Shown piece after piece: positions 4,874 to 19,532 of a stretch of 27,152 nucleotides of DNA. The stretch spans positions 1 to 27,152 of the forward strand of contig JAHLTZ010000105.1 of the NCBI GenBank assembly GCA_025786725.1. Reading direction: 5' to 3'. The first letter of the stretch is position 1; every line of letters begins with the position of its first letter. The notes under the pieces are model-generated. The model was not told the origin of the DNA. It saw only the letters and a program-made list of their open reading frames with translations, and did not search any database. The stretch is from Syncephalis fuscata. Lineage: Eukaryota; Zoopagomycota; Zoopagomycetes; Zoopagales; Piptocephalidaceae. A program made the position numbers and the translations under genes.

Positions 4874-6681
4874 TTAGGCTTGCTTTTGTTTCTTCTGCTT
4901 AAGACGCAGTATACCAAATCCATATCTCACGACAGAAACAAACAGATAGATTGATGTAGCAACAATTAAAAGTATAAAGACGTATAGATCATAGTTGCCG
5001 GCTTTCCACCATGGCATGCGGAAATCCGCACTTTCGTGTGCTAGAATAGCACCGGGGATGGCGGCCAGCTCAACAAGATCAGCACCACGATTGTGATCAC
5101 GATTAGCCATATGAAACATACGCTGAAGACGGTTAATGTTGGTACGGATCTCTTTAGCTTCCTCCGATCCAGGTGACAGTAGTCGATGGAAGGCATCGCT
5201 CAAAGTGTCATGGCTAATCTTCTTCTTAGACAGCCATAAACCTGCTTTGTGTTTGGACATTTTGTTTGCATTGATTGTTTGATCACCAAAGCCTGGAAGG
5301 CCAAGAACTGGCACTCCAGCGTAAAGTGTTTCGTAAATAGAGCTAATGCCGCAGTGTGTAACAAACAGTTGAGTAGATGGATGCGCTAATACAGCACGCT
5401 GTGGTGCATTATCAAGCAGACGAATTACTGGATGCTTTCCAGAACGCATATCCTCAACACTATGGTCAACACCATCAATGGTAATTGTTTGCGGTATTGA
5501 TTCTTTGTTATCAGCTGTCCGCATTAATCCCCAGATAACACCGTCAAGCAGACCATCTCTATGAGCAGCAAGCAATGAATAAAGTATTTTTGAAACACGA
5601 TGAATTGGCAAAACAGAGGCAGTCCCAAATCCTACATAAACGGTGCGTTTATGGGTATCCAAGAATTCGGCAAGCTCGTCAGGCAGTGCTTCAACGGCAT
5701 TTGATATGTGCGGACCAATCATAAATGTGTTGGATGGCAAAGGTCGAGGAGTCTACACAGAACATTGTTAGAAATTATTAAAAGCGCAATCGTGCCATTA
5801 CCTCAAAGCCAATAAAGTTATTAACCAATATAAATCCGTGTCGCCAAAGATCCGTGAATCCACTGTATGGTGTAATACCCGCCTTGGACATTGTAGCCTC
5901 TCTCTTTTTCAAAATCTCTTTTGCAGCAAAAAATACTTTTCCAGGGAAGATAATTTTGTCGTATAGACGATCAATAAATCCTACATTCTCATATGTGGGT
6001 GGCATATGTTGCATGCTGTTTGGTATATAAGGTTGCGCCGCATGGCCTAGATATTACATTGTTACATATAATTACATTCTTTCTAATACACTTACCATTT
6101 GTTCCCAACATATGCATGGTAATGACAAACGGACAGCCAACATCGTGTGCAGCATCAACACAAGCAGGACTGCTAAAGTCGCATATGATCACGTCAGCCG
6201 AGTTGTCACGAATCCATTGACGATAGAATTGAACATTTTCAACGTAGTTTTCTATGATTATGTTAAGTATCCAATTAATTAAGTCCGTTAATTTCATTTC
6301 TTCATCGGAAAATAAAGCCTGACGAGACATTTCTAAAAACACAGCTTTATCCATTGGGTTGGCGCCCATATCTACAGGACGTAACATAGGATGGTCCTTC
6401 AGCCACGAAGACAACGTATCGTTGTAGCCGGCAAATGCTACTTTATGGCCGCGTGCAGCCAGGATATTGCCTATAGATAGCTGGGGCACTGCATGGGACT
6501 TGGTGCCTATCGCAGTGCTAATAAGAACATTCAACGGACGGCTGCCGAAGCTGGCGGGTGTTGGCCCAGAAGTATTCTGTTTGGTTGGTGCATTTGCGCT
6601 TTTAGCGGATATATACGTTGACTTAGAACACAATATGCAACTAAGTGCAAGAAAACAAAATAGCAACTTTTTACAAAGCAT
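4874..6681 (-). CDS. UDP-glycosyltransferase, GT1 family, single-pass membrane type
   Basis: Three exons, 6681-6096, 6046-5802 and 5752-4874, give 569 residues, usual for animal-like UGTs. The start ATG at 6681 opens a hydrophobic signal peptide (MLCKKLLFCFLALSCILC). His63 in GTKSH fits the catalytic base of the family. Exon 3 holds the UDP-sugar-binding region: NAPQ at about 392, VTHCG at about 408-412 (most members have HGG) and FGDQ at about 432-435. A hydrophobic helix lies near residues 531-555, followed by a short lysine-rich tail (KQKKQKQ) that could be cytosolic and act in ER retention. By family knowledge it transfers a sugar from a UDP-sugar to a small lipophilic acceptor in the ER lumen; the sugar and acceptor cannot be told. 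Both introns are 49 bases. Confidence 0.9.
5753..5801 (-). other. Intron 2 of the glycosyltransferase gene
   Basis: Donor GTAATG and acceptor GTGTAG, 49 bases, phase 0. It joins NFIGFE to TPRPLPSNTF, a conserved-looking UGT junction before the GPH motif. Confidence 0.88.
6047..6095 (-). other. Intron 1 of the glycosyltransferase gene
   Basis: Donor GTAAGT and acceptor ATCTAG, 49 bases, phase 1. Joining restores a Gly codon and the run GHAAQPYIP. Confidence 0.88.
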
Positions 6682-8565: not shown

Positions 8566-10454
8566 GTCATTTAATCACAAATCATACTACAATAATTGAT
8601 AAATTTAATTAGATTGTATAATAATGTCAAATGCCACACAATATTTTATATGATGCTGCAGTTTATTTAGCCAATTAACAAGTACTAAAAGTTAAAAGCT
8701 AAAAATGAAATAGTACATAGCATGTATATATTAGTGCAACAACAACAATTGCGGAATGACATATAATTGCAATCATATGAAATTTATCAATATTTAATCA
8801 ATATTTCTATCGTGGCCAGTAACGACAGCAATAATCAATCTTAAACGTTTCAATGAAATTAAATAGTATGTTACATTTTTTATTTAAATCAATTTATTAA
8901 CAACATTTTAATAGAAAGTAATATAGTTGTGATGTGCATAACCACACGACTTCAATTGGAATAAATCTACTTTGTGGACTCAAATGTGAGAGTCAAAGTA
9001 AAAATGACTTGATTATGTAAATATTACGTGCTTAATCCAATATTTTGTTTTATTTTAATATATAGCTATACAGCTCTTATTAATGCTTAATAAACAAAAT
9101 TAATATTTCTTCCTATTACTATAATAATGTATAATATTAGTCGCTTACTTTGATAAATAATTAGATTAAGCCTTGTAATAGTTGGATTAGTTGGTAGTCG
9201 TATAAATGTAAGTATATAAGAAGTTACAGTGTGATTGTAGATATTTATCCATACAAGCAACCATAATTATAAATTATAATGACAATAATAAATGATTTAA
9301 TTACTAAAATTGTTAATTCAATTTTATTTACATTTCTCTGTTTTCTGTGCATTATCTCGGTTTAACGTTGCTGCTGTTTTGGTCACATTAGCAACAGCCA
9401 ACTTTTGATAAACGCAGTCCATTTTAGCATAGTTATAATGATTTGTTATAGGTCAAACCATTAATCCTTTGAGCTGCCAATTGTTTTTCCATTGGTTTCT
9501 GCTTTGACTTGTTCGTCTATATTCTATTTTGCTTAACTTGCTAGGATTGGTTTCGAAAATGTAAGTAGTACCTAGACCTTGGATGATTACCAGTTGATAT
9601 GCAATCCATCGACACTATGCACTGAAATTGGTAATATTTGAGCAAAACTTTCTATTGTGTTTAATCTAGTGTTTGCATATTGTATTGCGTGTAATCTAGT
9701 CAATGCAATCTAGTTTACAGCTGAAAACTGATGACGAAAATGACTTGTTGGAATGTTCCATTGCTCAAAATGCTGTGATGCATTATGCTACAAACAATAC
9801 TTATTGTATATTTAATTTCAGGTGATTTAGATTAGTCGCCATTTGAATGATGGTAGTTGCACAACATGTGGCATGATATGCCTGGATGTAATGCGTTTGT
9901 GAATTCAAAGCAATGATTGCCCCATAACAATGGGCATAGTGTCGAATGAAATGTATACATGCATCAATCAACACACTTTATAATCTAAAATTACAGCTGA
10001 CCTATGTATGGCAGTAAAACCTGTATAAAATACCAGTTTAACATATTAAACTTGTTTTTGCATCAGTGTTGTTGTGTGTTATTCTGTATGCAACAGATAT
10101 TGAGAATCAAATCGGTAGAAATGGCAGCAAAGACTTCATTATCGTTTTTACCAAATAGTTAAATCGTGTAACAAAAAATTCAGGCTAATATGTCTATTTT
10201 TATCCCATATTACTGGATTACGAACATTGTTACATCATTCGTGTAAATAACTAGCAGATTGAAGTAAAGACCGGGCAGGTTAAAATCAAGACCGAGCAGA
10301 TTAAAAGCAAGGCTGAGATACATTCTATTACGGCATGAGTCTATTGGTACACGCGCACCTCAGTTCATTGTTTGGATTGCTTTATTGGTTCATATTATAC
10401 ATTAATGGTATATATCGTATACTACAGTATACTAGTACTCAGCATAATCATAAG
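8566..10454. other. AT-rich spacer upstream of micro-exon gene 1
   Basis: No coding exon or RNA gene is supported. It contains the short degenerate tandem repeat at 10264-10324. Confidence 0.5.
10264..10324 (+). repeat. Degenerate 21-bp tandem repeat, about three units
   Basis: Units begin at 10264, 10285 and 10306. The first two share AAGACCGxGCAGxTTAAA and the third is more diverged. It lies about 275-335 bp before the ATG of micro-exon gene 1, so it could be an upstream regulatory repeat. No equivalent was found upstream of gene 2. Confidence 0.5.
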
Positions 10455-10598: not shown

Positions 10599-12528
10599 AT
10601 GAAGCTTTCCATTGCCGTCGTTTGCACCATTGTCGTCGCGCTTGTGGCCGCTACAGCCATTGTGGATGCTGATCCAGCTTTAGTTCGTCGTGGTATGTTG
10701 CAATAACAATAAATATGCCATAGCATTTGCTTACCAATAATATTGCTAACTAATGATGATATTAGATTGTAAGTTGTATTGCTTATTAACTGTAATTACT
10801 CATTAATTGCATGTTATATACTATGTGTATTATTAACTTAATGCTAATAGGCGGTAAGTGATATTGTATATTACTGGCTTATAAATTAATTAATAACATG
10901 TATTACGTGTATACATAACTTAATACCATAGATGGTAAGATGTATTGTGTATTAACCGACTATGTGCTAATTTTATGTGATACATTGTGTGTATCAACAA
11001 CTTAATATAATAGATTGTAAGTCATATTGTACATTAATTGAGCATTGGCTAATTATATATTATGCACTATGTGTATTAATGATTTAATATTAATAGGCAG
11101 TAAGTAGCATTGTATGTTACTGACTTATAAATTAATTGTATACCATGTATTGTGTGTATTAACGACTTAATATAATAGAAAGTAAGTTGTATTGTATATT
11201 AACTGCCTATGCACTAATTATATATTGTGTATTATATGTATCAATAACTTGGCACTAATTACGTGTTATATATTGTGTGCATCAACAATCTTATTAATAG
11301 GCAGTAAGTGGTATTGTATATTAGTTGACTATATATTAACTGCTATTTATTAATAATACCAATTATTTAATATTAATAGAATGTAAGTGATATTGTATAT
11401 TAGCTGACCATAGATTAACTACATTGTTTACTAATGGTATTAATTATTTAATATTAATAGCTTGTAAGTGATATTGTATATTAACCGACTATACATTAAC
11501 TATACTGTTTACTAATGGTATTAATTATTTAATATTAATAGGGGGTAGGTAATATTGTATATTAACCGACTATACATTAACTATGTTATTTACTAATGAT
11601 ACCAACTATTTAATATTAATAGATCGTAAGTGATATTGTATATTAGCTAACTATACATTAACTATACTATTTACTAATTGTATTAATTATTTAATATTAA
11701 TAGTTGGTAAGTGCTATTGTATATTAAATGACTATACATTAGCTATACTGTTTACTAATGGTATTAATTATTTAATATTAATAGGCGGTAAGTGATATTG
11801 TATATTAATTGACTATACATTAACTATACTATTTACTAATGGCATTAATTATTTAATATTAATAGTTGGTAAGTGATATTGTATATTAGCTGACTATACA
11901 TTAACTATACTATTTACTAATTGTATTAATTATTTAATATTAATAGAATGTAAGTGTATTGTATATTATGTACCGTTTACTAATTATATATTATGTACTC
12001 TATGAATCAACAACATTATTGATAGATTGTAAGTATAATTTTATATTAATTGACTATGTACTGACCACATGCTATATAATGTGCGCATCAACAACTTAAT
12101 ATAATAGGCAGCAAGTAGTATTGTATATCACTTGACTATTTACTAATTATATATTGCATTTTGTGTATCAATAACTTGCTACTAATAGATAGTAAGTTGT
12201 ATTGTATACTAACTGGCTACTCACTAATTACATGCTATTTATTGTATCCATCAACAACTTAATATCAATAGAGCGTAAGTTGTATTGTATACTAACTGGC
12301 TACTCACTAACTAAATGTTATTTACTATATTCACCAACAATTTAATATTAATAGAATGTAAGTAGCATTGTATATTAATTGACTATGTACTGACCAAATG
12401 CTATATACTGTGTGTATTAATAACTTAATATAATAGGCAGTAAGTAGTACTGTATATTAATAGATTATACATTAATTATATGACATGTAATATCTTTCTT
12501 TATAAATGCAGATAACCCACAACCATAA
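10599..12528 (+). CDS. Micro-exon gene 1: secreted four-cysteine peptide built from 21 single-codon exons
   Basis: Exon 1 (10599-10692, 94 bases) encodes a signal peptide, MKLSIAVVCTIVVALVA, then AIVDADPALV and the dibasic pair RR at 30-31. It ends in phase 1 at GTATGT. Twenty-one three-base exons follow, first bases at 10766, 10851, 10932, 11014, 11097, 11179, 11301, 11380, 11461, 11542, 11623, 11704, 11785, 11866, 11947, 12026, 12108, 12189, 12272, 12355 and 12437. Each sits between TAG and GTAAGT or a close variant. The last exon 12512-12528 (after ATGCAG) ends N-P-Q-P-stop. The joined frame has 57 residues and no internal stop. After RR there are 26 residues with cysteines at 2, 5, 17 and 21 (C-x2-C-x11-C-x3-C), completed by exons 2, 5, 17 and 21. 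Only 174 of 1930 bp would be coding. Inferred: secreted, Kex2-type processed, disulfide-bonded. Function unknown; the architecture, not homology, is the evidence. Confidence 0.78.
10693..12511 (+). repeat. Tandem array of 81-bp intron/micro-exon units (array 1)
   Basis: Micro-exon spacing is 79-85 bp except one step of 122. Units from 11380 to 11947 are exactly 81 bp apart seven times running and nearly identical. Each intron is about 78 bases: GTAAGT, a GATATTGTATATTA block, a CTAAT branch-like motif (TACTAAT in the recent units, about 30 bases before the acceptor) and TTAATATTAATAG. Comparing neighbouring recent introns by eye I count about 4-9 differences in 78, while neighbouring triplets differ at 2-3 of 3 bases. 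Older units at both ends are more diverged. The array clearly grew by tandem duplication of an intron plus one codon-sized exon. Confidence 0.9.
12111..12116 (+). other. GC-AG donor within array 1
   Basis: The unit at 12108 is followed by GCAAGT instead of GTAAGT. GC is the commonest non-GT donor, and the rest of the site is a perfect consensus, as functional GC donors require. Gene 2 has the same variant at 18473. Confidence 0.65.
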
Positions 12529-12690
12529 GAGCATCAGCATCGGTAGTACAATCAAACCGCTAGTACAATACACTTTAGATATATATTCGGTAAAAATCAA
12601 GACCATTTGACAACTACGCCGTCCAGTCTATTTATATATCAAGTTTTGGCCAATGCTCTGGTTTATCCAGTCTTTAATCAATGGGATCAT
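12529..12690 (+). other. 3' UTR of micro-exon gene 1 with block conserved in gene 2
   Basis: From about 12592 to 12690 the sequence aligns with the minus strand of 17210-17111. Shared pieces are AAGACCATTTGACA, then CAAGTT, then TGGTTTAT and TAATCAATG, in the same order and spacing. This supports common ancestry of the two genes and perhaps a conserved mRNA 3' element. Confidence 0.65.
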
Positions 12691-14151
12691 TATTTTACCA
12701 CCAAGCTTGCATCTAGTTGTTTCTATTCAACTGTGCAAGTTTATTGTAATAAACCTATGGTTCCATTCTAACTATATACAATCAAATAGCTATATTTATA
12801 ATCATGTTTTATTGATATCTAAAAACCGATAATTATTAATTATTAGTCAAACTAACAAAAGACATGTACGATATATTGTATTAGCTATAGGCATAGGTTG
12901 GTATGAATAGTAGCAAAACTATTATTACCATATAGCCAAATAATATTATAAAACGAATTAAATAGAGAAATTCAATACGTGAATAGTGATAGTGAGACTA
13001 TACTGTATACAATTAACCAAGAGTAATGAACAAAATGAATTAAAATCTACTAAAAGAATACAGTTAGCAATAAAATTTTAGCTTTTGTTAATGTAATTTT
13101 TGCAATATACACTATTAATGATATAGACGGACATATAGTATATGTATACAGAATAGATATGTACAGTACAATAATAATGATAAATAAATAGCTTAATGAC
13201 CAATGACACTCACCACTCAATTTCATCTTTAATAAAGCAAATATCTTGTTTAAATGTATGGCTATTATAGCTATTTAACTGCCAAATCACATTAAATAAC
13301 CAATAGTGTACTTAATATTGTGTAAGAGTTGTTTTTATTTAGCTAATAAAAGTATTATAATATTTAGTACAAATCAAGTGGTTTAAATGATCTGTCACAA
13401 CACCCTTTTAAGCTTCTTTCGCCATGTTCCACAACTTTTTTAAATTAGAACATTGGCGTGGCTATTGTGAAATTTAGGAATGAATATTACAAATAGCTTG
13501 TTTTAGTTTATCAATGGAAAATGCCATGTTGGCGGCTTTATTTTGCATATCTTTACTCATGTTTGATACACCAGCTAGTTAATTTGAGTTGATCAAAGCA
13601 ATAACACTTTTATGTAATTCGGAATTATTTAATTGCTAAATCTTATATCTGAAACGCTCCAAGCCAGTCTAATTTTATTTTTTAATTAAATCATTTTTAT
13701 TTGCATTACACTTTATTCATTTTAATAGTTGCTTCATTAGTAGTTTGTATTTGTTTTTCAATAAAGACATTTGTTTTAACATTAACTACCAGTTCAATAT
13801 TAATACTAATTCCTACAGAACCTATTCTTGTATTATATTTTTGCGTTACATTTGCCATCAGTATATTATTGAAAGTTTTTTAAAAAGCACAATTGGCGTT
13901 GCTGTTAACATTGCTACAATTAACTAAATTACGCAAATAAGCAAAGTTTTAAATTAAAATTGTTGCATTTATTGTAATTAACTTTTTCCCTATCAGGCAT
14001 TTTTAGCTTTTTCAAAATTCCTCAATTTTGCTTTAACTTTTCTATTTTGAATTCTCAAAGCAAAATTAGTTCCAATCAAAAACATGTTATTATGTACAAC
14101 AAACATAGTCATAATGTTTTCATTGACTAATTTAAAATCTGTGAGGCCGAT
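12691..14151. other. AT-rich spacer, no gene recognised
   Basis: No motif-bearing frame is present. The overlapping 60-codon frames at 13701-13927 are hydrophobic only because the DNA is AT-rich. The region probably contains the 3' end of the gene 1 transcript. Confidence 0.5.
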
Positions 14152-14731: not shown

Positions 14732-16596
14732 TTAAGCATTAAATGCTGACATATCAACGGAAATACCAAATTCTTTTTGCATTGCCATATTTGCTTGTGC
14801 ATCTAAGGCATCTTCAAATCCTTGGACGTTTTGGCCCAAAAACCATGAACATATGTGTTGCCATAGACGCATTGCCACAAATGAAATGTTAATTAAAGCC
14901 ATTGTTAGTCGGAAATGAATATAAGCAAGTCGCGCCCGAGTACCACTTATAATATACTGTAACATATTTTCTTCTCGTCTTTGGCCAATAACGCGTGAGT
15001 AGGCTGGTGATATTGCTGGTCCATTCGTCGTAGATTCATTGCTATTAGAGTCGGATTGTGTTGATGTTGGCCATTCAGTCCAATCGGTGCCAAGGCCACG
15101 GGCTGCCCAATCGGCCATACGGCCAATACGATTGACTGGTGAGCCTAAAGCTTGATTATACGCACGTATCATATTCATATTGCGTCCTACAAGTATAAGC
15201 TCGCGCGGAAACTGTTGTTCGTTTATTAATAAGTCGCGGGCCCGTTTTTTTGCTTGTAGTTGCATCTCGTATACATCATGGGCTCTTATTGGCGCATTTA
15301 ACGTGGCTGCAGACTGGCCTTGTTGATAGGGGCGCATTAGTGTAGCACTGGCGAACATACCTACTTCTTTAATACCCCACTGGTGACATATCTCTGTTAA
15401 TCGGCGATGATCATTAGTAAATAGCGATTTCCATAGTTGGCAATGTTCACGACGGAAACTATCACGGCAACGAAGATACAATCCATGATCAAGTAAAACA
15501 AGCTGTGGTCGTCTCGGTGGCCCACTAGGATGAGGGCGTACTAATAAATTACCCGGATGTGGATCACCTAGAATTTACTTGCTTATTATTACAATGACAT
15601 TTGAACTAATAAATAGCTTACAATGAACAAATCCAGTTATAAATATTTGATGGGAAAATAAATCAACCATAATACGCATAATTTCTGTCATGTCGTAGTT
15701 CATCGCACGCAATTCGTCAATATCGGCCAGACGTCGACCATCGATCCATTCACAAGTAAGTACTCGATCGGCTGAATAGTCCCAAAAGACACGCGGCACA
15801 TAAACTTCCTCTCGTAGTTTTGGTTCGCTAGCAATGGCTTGTGCGCACATTTCGGCATTTCTGCCTTCGCGTGCAAAATCGATTTCTTGACGTAAATGCT
15901 CTTGTACAAATTCTCCTGCCCAGGTAATTGGTAAATCAAAAGTCCATTCAAAAAATTTCATTAGTAAAGTATGAGCACGTAAATCCCATTCAATTTGTCG
16001 TTGGATTTCTGGCTTTTGCACTTTAACAGCTACACGCGTGCCATCATTTAAAGTAGCCTGATGTACTTGCGCGATTGAAGCGGATGCGATAGGCAGCCGA
16101 TCAAAGGTGCAGAAAAGCTTTTCGGGTACATCGCCAAGCTCTTCTCTTATAATACGCTCGACTTCATCATACGATGAAAAAGGCGCGTCGTCAAGTAAAA
16201 CCTTCATTACTTTATTGTACTCGGGCGGTAGTACGGCCGATTGTAAAGCCAATGCTTGTCCGAATTTTGTATAAAGACCGCTATATTGAATATCGATTAG
16301 CGGGCCGTTTGTTTTCTATATATTAGTGTAAACGTTAATGCGTACCCGTTTTTCTGGCAAACATCGAGAATACACTCGGCGGCTCGTTGGTGCAACGCGG
16401 ATAGCTCTTCGGCTGACCGGTCAGCTTGGAAATTCCACTTGTAATCAAAAGCAAGTCGGCCGGCTCCCCAAAGAGCCCGTCCGTTGCGGCTTAGCACACG
16501 TGCGCCATACGAACGGTCCCAGGCCCAAAGAGCAGTGCCGGCAAGCGCGCACGGCATAACTGCTTTGACCGTCCAATAGCCTAGTCTCGACTGCAT
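14732..16596 (-). CDS. ABC1/UbiB-family atypical kinase, ADCK1/Mcp2-like
   Basis: Three exons (16596-16346, 16280-15622, 15567-14732) give 581 residues. Near the N-terminus is a hydrophobic segment (AVMPCALAGTALWAW). The family KxGQ motif appears as KFGQALALQSAVLPPEY near residue 88, assembled across intron 1. Later come ASIAQVHQA, the VAVK lysine near residue 170, EIDFAREGRNAE, HCDPHPGNLLV (assembled across intron 2) and DHGLY in place of DFG. This order is typical of the ADCK1 branch of the UbiB family. Those proteins are mitochondrial and take part in coenzyme Q and lipid homeostasis; localisation here is inferred. The C-terminal third has a Ser/Asn/Thr-rich insertion followed by hydrophobic stretches. 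The gene is transcribed towards gene 1 and lies between the two micro-exon genes, with no sign of a functional link. Confidence 0.92.
15568..15621 (-). other. Intron 2 of the ADCK1-like gene
   Basis: Donor GTAAGC, acceptor TTCTAG, 54 bases, phase 1. Splicing rebuilds the catalytic HCDPHPGN motif. Confidence 0.9.
16281..16345 (-). other. Intron 1 of the ADCK1-like gene
   Basis: Donor GTACGC, acceptor CAATATAG, 65 bases, phase 2. An earlier ATATATAG is passed over because only the later acceptor rebuilds KNGGLYTKFGQ. Confidence 0.87.
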
Positions 16597-17110: not shown

Positions 17111-17427
17111 TTCATTGATTACAAGTTGAATAAACCAAAGCATCAAATATAACTTGGTATGCGTATGGGCTAGAGGAAAACTGTCAAATGGTCTTAAGTT
17201 TTTTGATTATGTCTAAAATATATTAAACCAAAAGTTCAATCAATCTAACAGCACTAATGTTTTGCAAGCATCGATTACATTAGTTTATAAACAAAAAACA
17301 GTATGTGTTATATAATTCGTGAGTATTCAATTAATATACAACATCACTTACTGCCTATTATGTGAGGTTTTTATACATACATCACATAATATAAAATTGG
17401 CGTATAGTCAACGTGTATACCGTATTA
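17111..17427 (-). other. 3' UTR of micro-exon gene 2, with conserved block and relict last unit
   Basis: The block 17210-17111 aligns with the gene 1 3' UTR (12592-12690). Between it and the predicted stop there is one more intact-looking unit, a three-base exon at 17354-17352 with GTAAGT. The position matching the gene 1 terminal acceptor (TTTATAAATGCAG) reads TTTATAAACTAATG and has lost the AG. This fits the coding region now ending earlier. Confidence 0.55.
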
Positions 17428-19438
17428 TTAGCCATCTATTGATATTGAGTCATAGATGCACACAGTAAATAGCATGTGATTAGTGTCGAGTCGATTAATA
17501 TGCAATGCCACTTACCGCCTATTAATATTAAGTTGTCAATACACATAGTTCATAGTATATAATTAGTGCATATTTAGTTGCTATACCATGTCACTTACAA
17601 TCTATTAATATTAGTTTGTTGATGAGCACAGTTCATAGCATTTAATTAATGCATAAGCAATTAACACACAGCAGCACTTACTCTCTATCAATAACAGATC
17701 ATTGATACATGCAATACATATTATGTAGTTATTATATAGTCAATTTATATAAAACTACACTTACCGGCTATTAATATTAAGTTATTAAGGCACACATAAC
17801 AGAAAAATATAATTAGCGTATAATTAATTGATATACAATGTTACCTACGGCCTATTATAATAAATTTTAGTATACAAAGTACATGGCATATAATTAGCGT
17901 ATAGTTAATTGATATAAAATGATTCTTACAAGCTATTATAACAAGTTGTTGATGCACATGACACATATCATTTGATGAGTGTATTTCCATAAATATATAT
18001 TAGCACTTACATTCTATTAATATCAAATAGTTAAATATACACATTTTATAGCATATAATTAATTTAAGGCCAACTATGCATATATATATATATCGTCACT
18101 TACTAACTATTATATCAGTTGTTTGTAATATAGTATATGGTGGATAGTTAGCGTATAATTAGCTGATATGCAATGGCACTTACTGCCTATTATGTTATAT
18201 TGCCAATATACATATTATAAAATATATAGTCATTACATAGTTAATTAGTAAATAATAGTATTGAGAGTACACTAGCTCTCCAAACTAGCTATTATACAAT
18301 AACACTTACAAGCTATTGATGTCAAATTGTCAGATATGCGCATTGCATAGCAGCGATTAGTGTATAATTACTTAGCATATAACAGCACTTACGAACTATT
18401 GATATTAAGTTTTATGTATATAGTATCCAATGTGTAATTAGCGCATATTCAAGTGTTATTAAATAACACTTGCCAACTATTAATATTAAATTATCAAACG
18501 CACGCATTATATAGTATGTGGTTAGTGTGTGGTCAGTTAATATACAAACTACTAACAAACTATTAATATTGTGCCGTTTATACAGGCGGCAAATAGCATT
18601 TAATTAATGTATAGCTAAAAAGTATAAGTATCACTTACAGCCTATCAATTTTAAGTTATTGGTAGAAACATTATACAAAATGTAATTAGTATAGAACTGA
18701 TTAGTATACAATGGCACCTACAATCTATTATATGAGATTTTGATACACCCATATAGTATATAATTAGTTCGTATATAAGCAGTACATAGTTCCACTTACA
18801 CCCTATGAATATTGAGTTATTGGTAAAATAGTAAATAAGTGTAATTAGTACAAAGCTAGCTAGTTTACAATGTCACCTACATCCTATTATATTATATTTT
18901 AAATAAATAAAATTTATAAAATACAGTTAGCACATAGCTAATCAGTGCGCAGCTTCACTTACGTCCTATTAATATTATGTTGTTGATAGATATGACAGAC
19001 AACATGCAGTTAGGCTATATTCAATTAGTATACAGTCTCACTTACGTCCTATTAAAGTTATGTTGTTAACGCATGTAATACATAGCATATAATTGGTAAG
19101 TAATCAATTAATATAAATAACACTCACCGTCTATTGGTATTAGTTAGTTGATATAATGGCATATACCATACCATTAGTGTGCAATCAATAAATATACAAT
19201 GCTACTTACGGGCTATTGATATTAGGTTGATAAATGAATACAATAATTAGTTAGATTGCTATTAAGATACAATACCACTTACTATCTATTTATGTTGATT
19301 TGGCAAACAAAAGCAATGTTCAATTAAATCTTAATTAATATGTAATATTACTTACGTGCTATTAATGTTGATTCAGCATTGGTTAAACATAATACTAGTA
19401 AGCATAAATTATTGTTTAGTTATTTTAAGTGCACATAC
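17355..19438 (-). repeat. Tandem array of about 82-bp intron/micro-exon units (array 2)
   Basis: Spacing is 73-93 bp, mostly 80-84, with one step of 126 between the units at 18312 and 18186. The introns belong to the same family as array 1: GTAAGTGnnATTGTATA at the start, CTAATTATA in the middle, and TTAATATTAATAG or TATAATAG at the end. Array 2 is more diverged throughout than the recent part of array 1, so it looks older. Variant donors are GTGAG (19127), GTAGG (18880, 18721, 17848), GTTAG (18556) and GCAAG (18473). Confidence 0.87.
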
Positions 19439-19532
19439 GACGACCTTCTTGATTTGGCGTAGCATCCACTATGGCTATATTAGCTACAAAAGCCACGAAG
19501 AAAGTAAAAAAGACGACAATGAAAAGGTTCAT
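17428..19532 (-). CDS. Micro-exon gene 2: secreted four-cysteine peptide built from at least 23 single-codon exons
   Basis: Exon 1 (19532-19439) is 94 bases, as in gene 1, and aligns residue for residue with 16 of 31 identities, including AIVDAxP. It ends in phase 1 at GTATGT. Three-base exons between TAG or a close variant and GTAAG or variants begin (minus strand) at 19358, 19285, 19212, 19130, 19048, 18965, 18883, 18802, 18724, 18641, 18559, 18476, 18395, 18312, 18186, 18106, 18013, 17932, 17851, 17767, 17684, 17601 and 17518. A unit at 17435 has lost its donor (GCTAAT); reading through gives D-G-stop at 17430-17428, about 56 residues with no earlier stop. Skipping it and using 17354 gives a similar end. 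The RR pair is at residues 37-38, made by units 6 and 7. Then follow 18 residues with cysteines at 3, 8, 12 and 16 (C-x4-C-x3-C-x3-C). Function unknown. Confidence 0.73.

Follow-up and report, generated by a model that had tools for sequence, protein, structure and literature searches.

The gene at positions 10599 to 12528 on the forward strand of the analysed DNA belongs, with little doubt on our part, to a Syncephalis fuscata family that would encode small secreted cysteine-rich peptides, with roughly one exon per residue in the mature part. The window, i.e. the whole stretch of 27,152 nt that was analysed, contains an array of units with an exact spacing of 3 nt between splice-like signals. 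Arrays of this kind recur on the scale of the genome, the joined triplets carry a coding constraint in one frame, and intronless paralogs exist.

The array in the window

The preliminary description had listed 21 consecutive units, each with exactly three bases from the end of a TAATAG-type acceptor to the start of a GTAAGT-type donor. All 21 were found at their places, with triplets from 10766-10768 through 12437-12439, and the pattern was present in each of them (donors: 18 GTAAGT and one each of GTAAGA, GTAGGT and GCAAGT). The units follow each other at about 79 nt. The internal introns are 76-82 nt long with the sole exception of one of 119 nt (11182-11300), and the first and last introns have 73 and 72 nt. 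Exon 1 comprises 94 nt and thus leaves one base over, which places the introns in phase 1. Spliced accordingly, the predicted sequence of 174 nt has the open frame that had been proposed, with 57 amino acids, four cysteines in the mature part and a stop at 12526-12528. The predicted features of this gene, and of a second array in the same window, are as follows.

10599..10692, +, exon 1: signal peptide ending ...ALVRR and first base of the next codon (phase 1); from translation, donor position and DNA matches
10693..10765, +, first intron, 73 nt, GTATGT donor, conserved in the family; from the first-intron motif genome-wide
10766..10768, +, micro-exon 1, ATT
10851..10853, +, micro-exon 2, GCG
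10932..10934, +, micro-exon 3, ATG, GTAAGA donor
11014..11016, +, micro-exon 4, ATT
11097..11099, +, micro-exon 5, GCA
11179..11181, +, micro-exon 6, AAA
11301..11303, +, micro-exon 7, GCA, preceded by the 119-nt intron
11380..11382, +, micro-exon 8, AAT
11461..11463, +, micro-exon 9, CTT
11542..11544, +, micro-exon 10, GGG, GTAGGT donor
11623..11625, +, micro-exon 11, ATC
11704..11706, +, micro-exon 12, TTG
11785..11787, +, micro-exon 13, GCG
11866..11868, +, micro-exon 14, TTG
11947..11949, +, micro-exon 15, AAT; 9-nt in-frame alternative to 11955
12026..12028, +, micro-exon 16, ATT
12108..12110, +, micro-exon 17, GCA, GC donor (GCAAGT)
12189..12191, +, micro-exon 18, ATA
12272..12274, +, micro-exon 19, AGC
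12355..12357, +, micro-exon 20, AAT
12437..12439, +, micro-exon 21, GCA
12512..12780, +, last exon: end of the frame, stop 12526-12528, 3′ UTR (12780 is the end of the stretch compared); from the DNA match to intronless paralogs
17352..19532, -, second single-codon-exon gene, exon 1 to last triplet; diverged signal peptide, phase 1

At unit 15 the position-weight model favoured a 9-nt reading (11947-11955). Both the 3-nt and the 9-nt reading are in frame, and we think that the preference arises because the intron of this unit lacks one base after GTAAGT. The second array gene has its exon 1 at 19532-19439 and 24 triplets, from 19358-19356 down to 17354-17352, with two long introns of 123 and 161 nt. 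Its exon-1 frame is open and reads C-x4-C-x3-C-x3-C; one of the other two offsets contains a stop. The neighbouring genes in the window are ordinary: a ZIP zinc transporter (3-647, +), a mitochondrial carrier (821-1729, -), a UDP-glycosyltransferase (4877-5740, -) and an ABC1 kinase-like protein (15578-16252, -). A 21-bp tandem repeat (2.8 copies) lies at 10253-10311, upstream of exon 1 of the window gene.

A family of array genes

The search of the S. fuscata genome (Zoopagales, Piptocephalidaceae; 28.95 Mb in 299 contigs) revealed that the window gene is not alone, being one member of a large family of arrays in which some exons have 6 nt. Allowing up to 3 mismatches, the exon-1 motif occurs in 221 copies (control 0) and the first-intron motif in 168 (control 7). 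We estimate about 160 array genes from this, an estimate rather than a count, since some genes may hold the first-intron motif twice and others have diverged. Tandem TAG-N3-GTAAG pairs at a distance of 60-90 nt number 2,904 (1226+1678), with none for the reversed pattern, whereas the same search with N4 gave 2 pairs (reversed control 0); the N3 array is not a product of chance. Pairs of an N6 followed by an N3 unit were found 86 times (control 2), and a stricter motif for the single unit 1,617 times (control 1).

With a 111-base query that spans exon 1 and runs into the start of intron 1, at least 40 genome matches were obtained (the best 40 of 219 candidates scored). For further analysis, 39 loci were taken from these matches and two additional stretches were included. 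Of the 41 exon-1 loci examined, the window gene and L049 counted, 40 have five or more units within 4.5 kb, a share that is biased because the query included the start of the intron; the one exception, L045, is intronless. Some array loci form large duplicates in inverted or direct orientation, separated by tens of kb (contig C1 at about 475-477 and 531-534 kb, and at 575 and 610 kb; contig C2 at about 226 and 245 kb). In the array L048 (C1:574000-577500), exon 1 has diverged (MKFSIAVVCAILVAIVAS...) and the triplets differ as well.

For 38 of the 41 loci (all except L026, L042 and L045), exon chains were modelled from 20-base donor and acceptor scores and intron length, with exons of 0-60 nt allowed and no rule on 3 nt or on frame. 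The scoring tables were trained on the flanks of 3-nt units, which favours this class of splice site but not the distance between sites. Among the resulting 811 internal exons, 771 have 3 nt, 32 have 6 nt and 3 have 9 nt; the remainder are two of 2 nt and one each of 5, 27 and 48 nt. Hence, 808 of the 811 are multiples of 3. The longest run comprises 47 consecutive 3-nt exons (sometimes 6 nt), and half of the 6-nt exons (16 of 32) stand in third position. Several chains end early (e.g. L028, L031, L033 and L046) or skip a likely exon, as seen from introns of 150-170 nt.

Coding constraint across the triplet joins

When the modelled micro-exons of 33 genes are joined, one stop is found in 710 codons of the frame set by exon 1, compared with 8 in 743 and 77 in 710 in the other offsets. 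Shuffling of exons within genes gave a mean of 39.4 stops and a minimum of 24 in 2000 shuffles. The 33 genes are what is left of the 38 models without two whose modelled exon 1 is out of phase and three that have fewer than five usable exons. In a non-redundant set of 21 genes the result is similar, with 1 stop in 520 codons against 27.4 in shuffles. It is also obtained independently of the models: strict runs of at least four units contain 2 stops in 658 codons (shuffled mean 41.0), and 34 non-redundant strict runs contain none in 353 (shuffled 20.8), in both cases with 0 of 2000 shuffles as low.

The two stops in the strict runs fall in L009 and L032. L009 (C135:363489-368489) closely resembles the window gene but has ACG in place of ATG and a stop in the coding frame; it is probably a decayed copy. 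Other copies that look decayed are L026 and L047, with exon 1 out of frame, L032 with its stop, and L011, in whose model the first exon, of 27 nt, contains a stop and another exon has 2 nt.

Apart from stops, the joined triplets contain 130 cysteines where 63.2 are expected, C..C 25 times (4.4 expected) and C...C 39 times (4.3 expected); none of these three values was equalled in 2000 shuffles. A codon-usage score trained on 492 codons of the intronless paralogs described below was positive in the coding offset for 21 of the 23 genes tested, and in each of the other offsets for 0 of 23. The triplet bases themselves hold 0.06-0.15 bit of information; many flanking positions outside the search pattern reach at least 1 bit.

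The array of the window gene is a tandem repeat with 81/243-bp repeats, and joining exon 1 directly to the last exon would likewise keep the frame and soon reach a stop. Both would suit a non-coding minisatellite within one long intron, in which the TAG-NNN-GTAAGT units were decoys or remnants. Such a minisatellite, however, gives no reason for the avoidance of stops over the joins in the exon-1 frame only (2 in 658 codons against 41), for the kept spacing of cysteines or for a codon usage like that of the intronless paralogs, and we regard it as highly improbable. Since stop avoidance, cysteine spacing, codon usage and the intronless paralogs agree, the triplets are very probably exons that are joined one codon each.

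The one-codon splicing in phase 1 that the preliminary description had put forward for the window gene is supported at the level of the family, on these same four grounds. Taken by itself, the window gene says little on this point: a run of 20 codons without a stop over its triplets can readily arise by chance, and against the profile of the intronless paralogs the spliced peptide scored -2.1 bits, with 184 of 200 triplet shuffles as good.

Intronless paralogs and public protein models

A search with one spliced peptide delivered contiguous matches that extend past exon 1 (best 150 of 310 candidates scored). The intronless set consists of 14 members, namely L045 and the 13 of 14 fetched stretches that have the signal-peptide frame (L059 is without it). 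Their signal peptide is the one found in array genes, and their mature parts have at least six cysteines, mostly as C-x2-C-x3-C and a second cluster. Beyond its own stop, each of the 14 matches the last exon of the window gene with a DNA identity of 80-90%. This test reveals homologous 3′ UTRs and not the point at which homology begins, because the stretches were cut at the stop (for L054 further upstream). With homologous ends at the signal peptide and the 3′ UTR, the same family thus has a contiguous peptide in some genes and an array in others.

A profile of the intronless mature peptides gave more than 5 bits for 13 of 23 spliced array peptides and 5 bits or less for the other 10, compared with more than 5 bits for 166 of the 4261 triplet-shuffled peptides listed (4600 were made). 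L014, L020, L027, L035, L037 and L039 outscore all 200 of their own shuffles of both kinds. As judged from these predicted peptides, the cysteine scaffold may be common to the intronless paralogs and about half of the tested array genes.

The public protein models of S. fuscata include 11 members of the family. In two of them, P0003 and P0004, the signal peptide is followed by RKLYC..., which corresponds to the translated GTAAGTTGTATTGT start of an intron of the GTAAGT type; these two models therefore seem to read into introns. P0008 and P0010 combine this signal peptide with mature parts that differ greatly, so that the signal sequence is common to several types of peptide. Among solved structures, 17 matches were obtained, none of them significant (best E 0.12). 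The Pfam model of scorpion short toxins hit 1 of 19 members (E 2.5e-4), which we take as a chance likeness of cysteine spacing. A structure predicted for the intronless P0001 with the help of one homolog (mean pLDDT 56, pTM 0.30) was not used.

Evolution of introns and triplets

Introns at different places of an array are alike, with mean identities of 0.59-0.65 at separations of 1-15 units. Of 286 introns with a match of at least 85% inside their own gene, 83 have the neighbour as best match (ties assigned to the nearest), which makes the neighbour the commonest best match. The triplets behave differently: for units of the same gene with flanks at least 95% identical, the triplets are only 49% identical (51 pairs from 15 genes; chance 28%). 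In paralog pairs aligned over stretches with an identity of 80% or more, differences affect 98 of the 769 bases in triplets and 644 of the 16319 in introns (14 of 15 pairs, one pair being without a model). In the ten pairs with an intron difference below 4.5%, the values are 29 of 521 (5.6%) for triplets and 300 of 11194 (2.7%) for introns. For single pairs the triplet values lie between 0 of 63 and 13 of 69; some loci occur in more than one pair, and misalignment of units may have raised the triplet difference. By this comparison, the excess of triplets over introns between recent copies appears to be about twofold.

Hypermutation of the triplets was considered and rejected, as the excess in recent copies is about twofold and the larger contrast within genes is better explained otherwise. 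For this reason we favour a model in which introns would be homogenised or duplicated and codons kept or changed by selection. Each unit of intron and triplet would then represent an in-frame cassette for one residue, which could be duplicated, lost or exchanged via recombination between similar introns.

The arrays might also have originated by invasion, with introner-like elements breaking an intronless cysteine-rich gene at every codon and no duplication of units. In its favour, there are paralogs that lack introns but share signal peptide and 3′ UTR with the array genes, and introns are alike across array places (0.59-0.65). However, the best match of an intron is most often its neighbour (83 of 286), which fits local duplication of units, as do the 81/243-bp repeats of the window array, and the intronless copies could instead be retrocopies. 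An origin by invasion alone is thus possible but doubtful, and unit duplication and intron invasion may both have acted. Introner elements are introns inserted in near-identical form at many loci that are unrelated to each other, and they carry terminal repeats or target duplications. In comparing the S. fuscata arrays with them we looked at the pairing of intron ends alone, and the best-paired register had no support. A hairpin from paired intron ends was rejected, since in the best register 81.5% of positions were paired as against 80.8% with shuffled partners (z 2.0; non-redundant set of 279 out of 621 distinct introns). In a few registers with poor pairing there was a small excess (best 54.2% against 51.3%, z 4.6), which we take as a sign of relatedness.

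Splicing of the arrays and possible function

In the proposed mechanism, which is derived from genomic DNA, exon 1 would encode the signal peptide up to the dibasic RR, a putative cleavage site of the Kex2 type. The mature peptide would be assembled from 3-nt exons, each flanked by its own complete spliceosomal intron of about 79 nt in phase 1, and a short last exon with the stop would close it. Each triplet would have to be included in the mRNA by the spliceosome. The array introns have about 79 nt, GTAAGT donors and TAATAG acceptors, which suggests that splice sites are recognised across the intron. The introns are probably removed one after another, because two splice-site complexes cannot sit on a 3-nt exon at once. 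Several observations speak against the one-codon reading: P0003 and P0004 seem to read into introns, the window gene and others among the 10 of 23 genes at 5 bits or less do poorly on the profile, some copies look decayed, several modelled chains end early, and one intron of the window array has 119 nt.

We infer that inclusion of the triplets is mostly constitutive and that full inclusion gives the main product, since skipping would break the cysteine spacing. For schistosome micro-exon genes, a combinatorial splicing of cassette exons has been proposed. Alternative splicing of this kind could skip single codons and create many peptide variants per gene in S. fuscata too: 808 of 811 modelled internal exons are multiples of 3, so that skipping one keeps the frame, and a few donors of the window gene (GCAAGT, GTAGGT and GTAAGA) depart from GTAAGT. 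On the other hand, frequent skipping would scramble both the C..C and C...C spacings, which are far above shuffles, and the intronless scaffold that about half of the tested genes appear to fit, and the flanks of the units are strongly conserved. We therefore consider a combinatorial use of the triplets unlikely.

Syncephalis species are parasites of other fungi. RNA reads of S. fuscata may exist, as a survey that combined transcriptome mining with cultures reports a virus from it (PMC7482067); exons of 3 nt are beyond the reach of ordinary aligners. As the predicted peptides are secreted, cysteine-rich, variable and multi-copy, the data suggest an action outside the cell, perhaps on host fungi.

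Relation to other micro-exon genes

The preliminary description knew of no array of single-codon exons. The titles and abstract beginnings of the literature matches listed, a collection outside of which lie preprints and most subscription journals, report neither runs of single-codon exons nor introns of secreted-peptide genes in Syncephalis. A database search for relatives of the family at E values up to 10 gave 11 sequences, all from S. fuscata, and no match to schistosome micro-exon genes (MEGs) or aphid bicycle genes, as far as a database search can tell.

The schistosome and aphid genes are nevertheless the nearest in kind. MEGs of schistosomes resemble the S. fuscata arrays in encoding secreted proteins with many short symmetric exons, in forming fast-evolving families and in belonging to a parasite. 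Symmetric exons, by which MEGs are characterised, make up 808 of the 811 modelled exons in S. fuscata. However, the exons of MEGs are described with 6-36 bp (PMC5825161), whereas 771 of 811 have 3 nt in S. fuscata and 32 have 6 nt. The bicycle genes of aphids, putative gall effectors, share with the arrays many micro-exons, a rapid evolution and a putative role as effectors. Their micro-exons are larger than single codons, in contrast to the internal exons of S. fuscata, which are almost all single codons. Nearly all bicycle micro-exons start at codon position 2, there named exon phase 2 (PMC9168663). This start is shared with the S. fuscata triplets, as exon 1 leaves one codon base, and we take the likeness to be convergent.

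Exons of comparable size are known singly. One-nucleotide exons are described for Arabidopsis APC11 and for CYP621A of Fusarium, the fungal one with transcript support (PMC4674806, PMC12940212). They show that exons this small can be spliced, but each is one tiny exon in an ordinary gene and not one of dozens. Ultra-short microexons of 1-15 nt are collected for plants in MEPDB (PMC12409088), and alternative exons of 3 nt occur in animals (PMC4674806). These belong to the same size class; in the sources consulted, they stand isolated in larger genes and do not form long single-codon runs. If all micro-exon genes are counted as one kind, the arrays may be seen as an extreme variant of it. In our view the S. 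fuscata arrays would differ in kind from other micro-exon genes, in that their predicted coding region is built from single codons as its units.

In the wider reading towards which we lean, S. fuscata would encode on the order of at least 100 secreted peptides residue by residue, with thousands of constitutive 3-nt exons serving as independent codon cassettes, and recombination between similar introns would add, delete and swap single residues of disulfide peptides in an arms race with host fungi. If this is true, there is no useful lower limit on exon size, even with dozens of tiny exons in a row, and models of splice-site pairing must account for such rows. Each residue would be a separately duplicable genetic unit, and peptides would evolve codon by codon. 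Since a layout of one-codon exons would escape standard gene-finding, a large repertoire of secreted peptides might be hidden from gene finders and read aligners, here and perhaps elsewhere.
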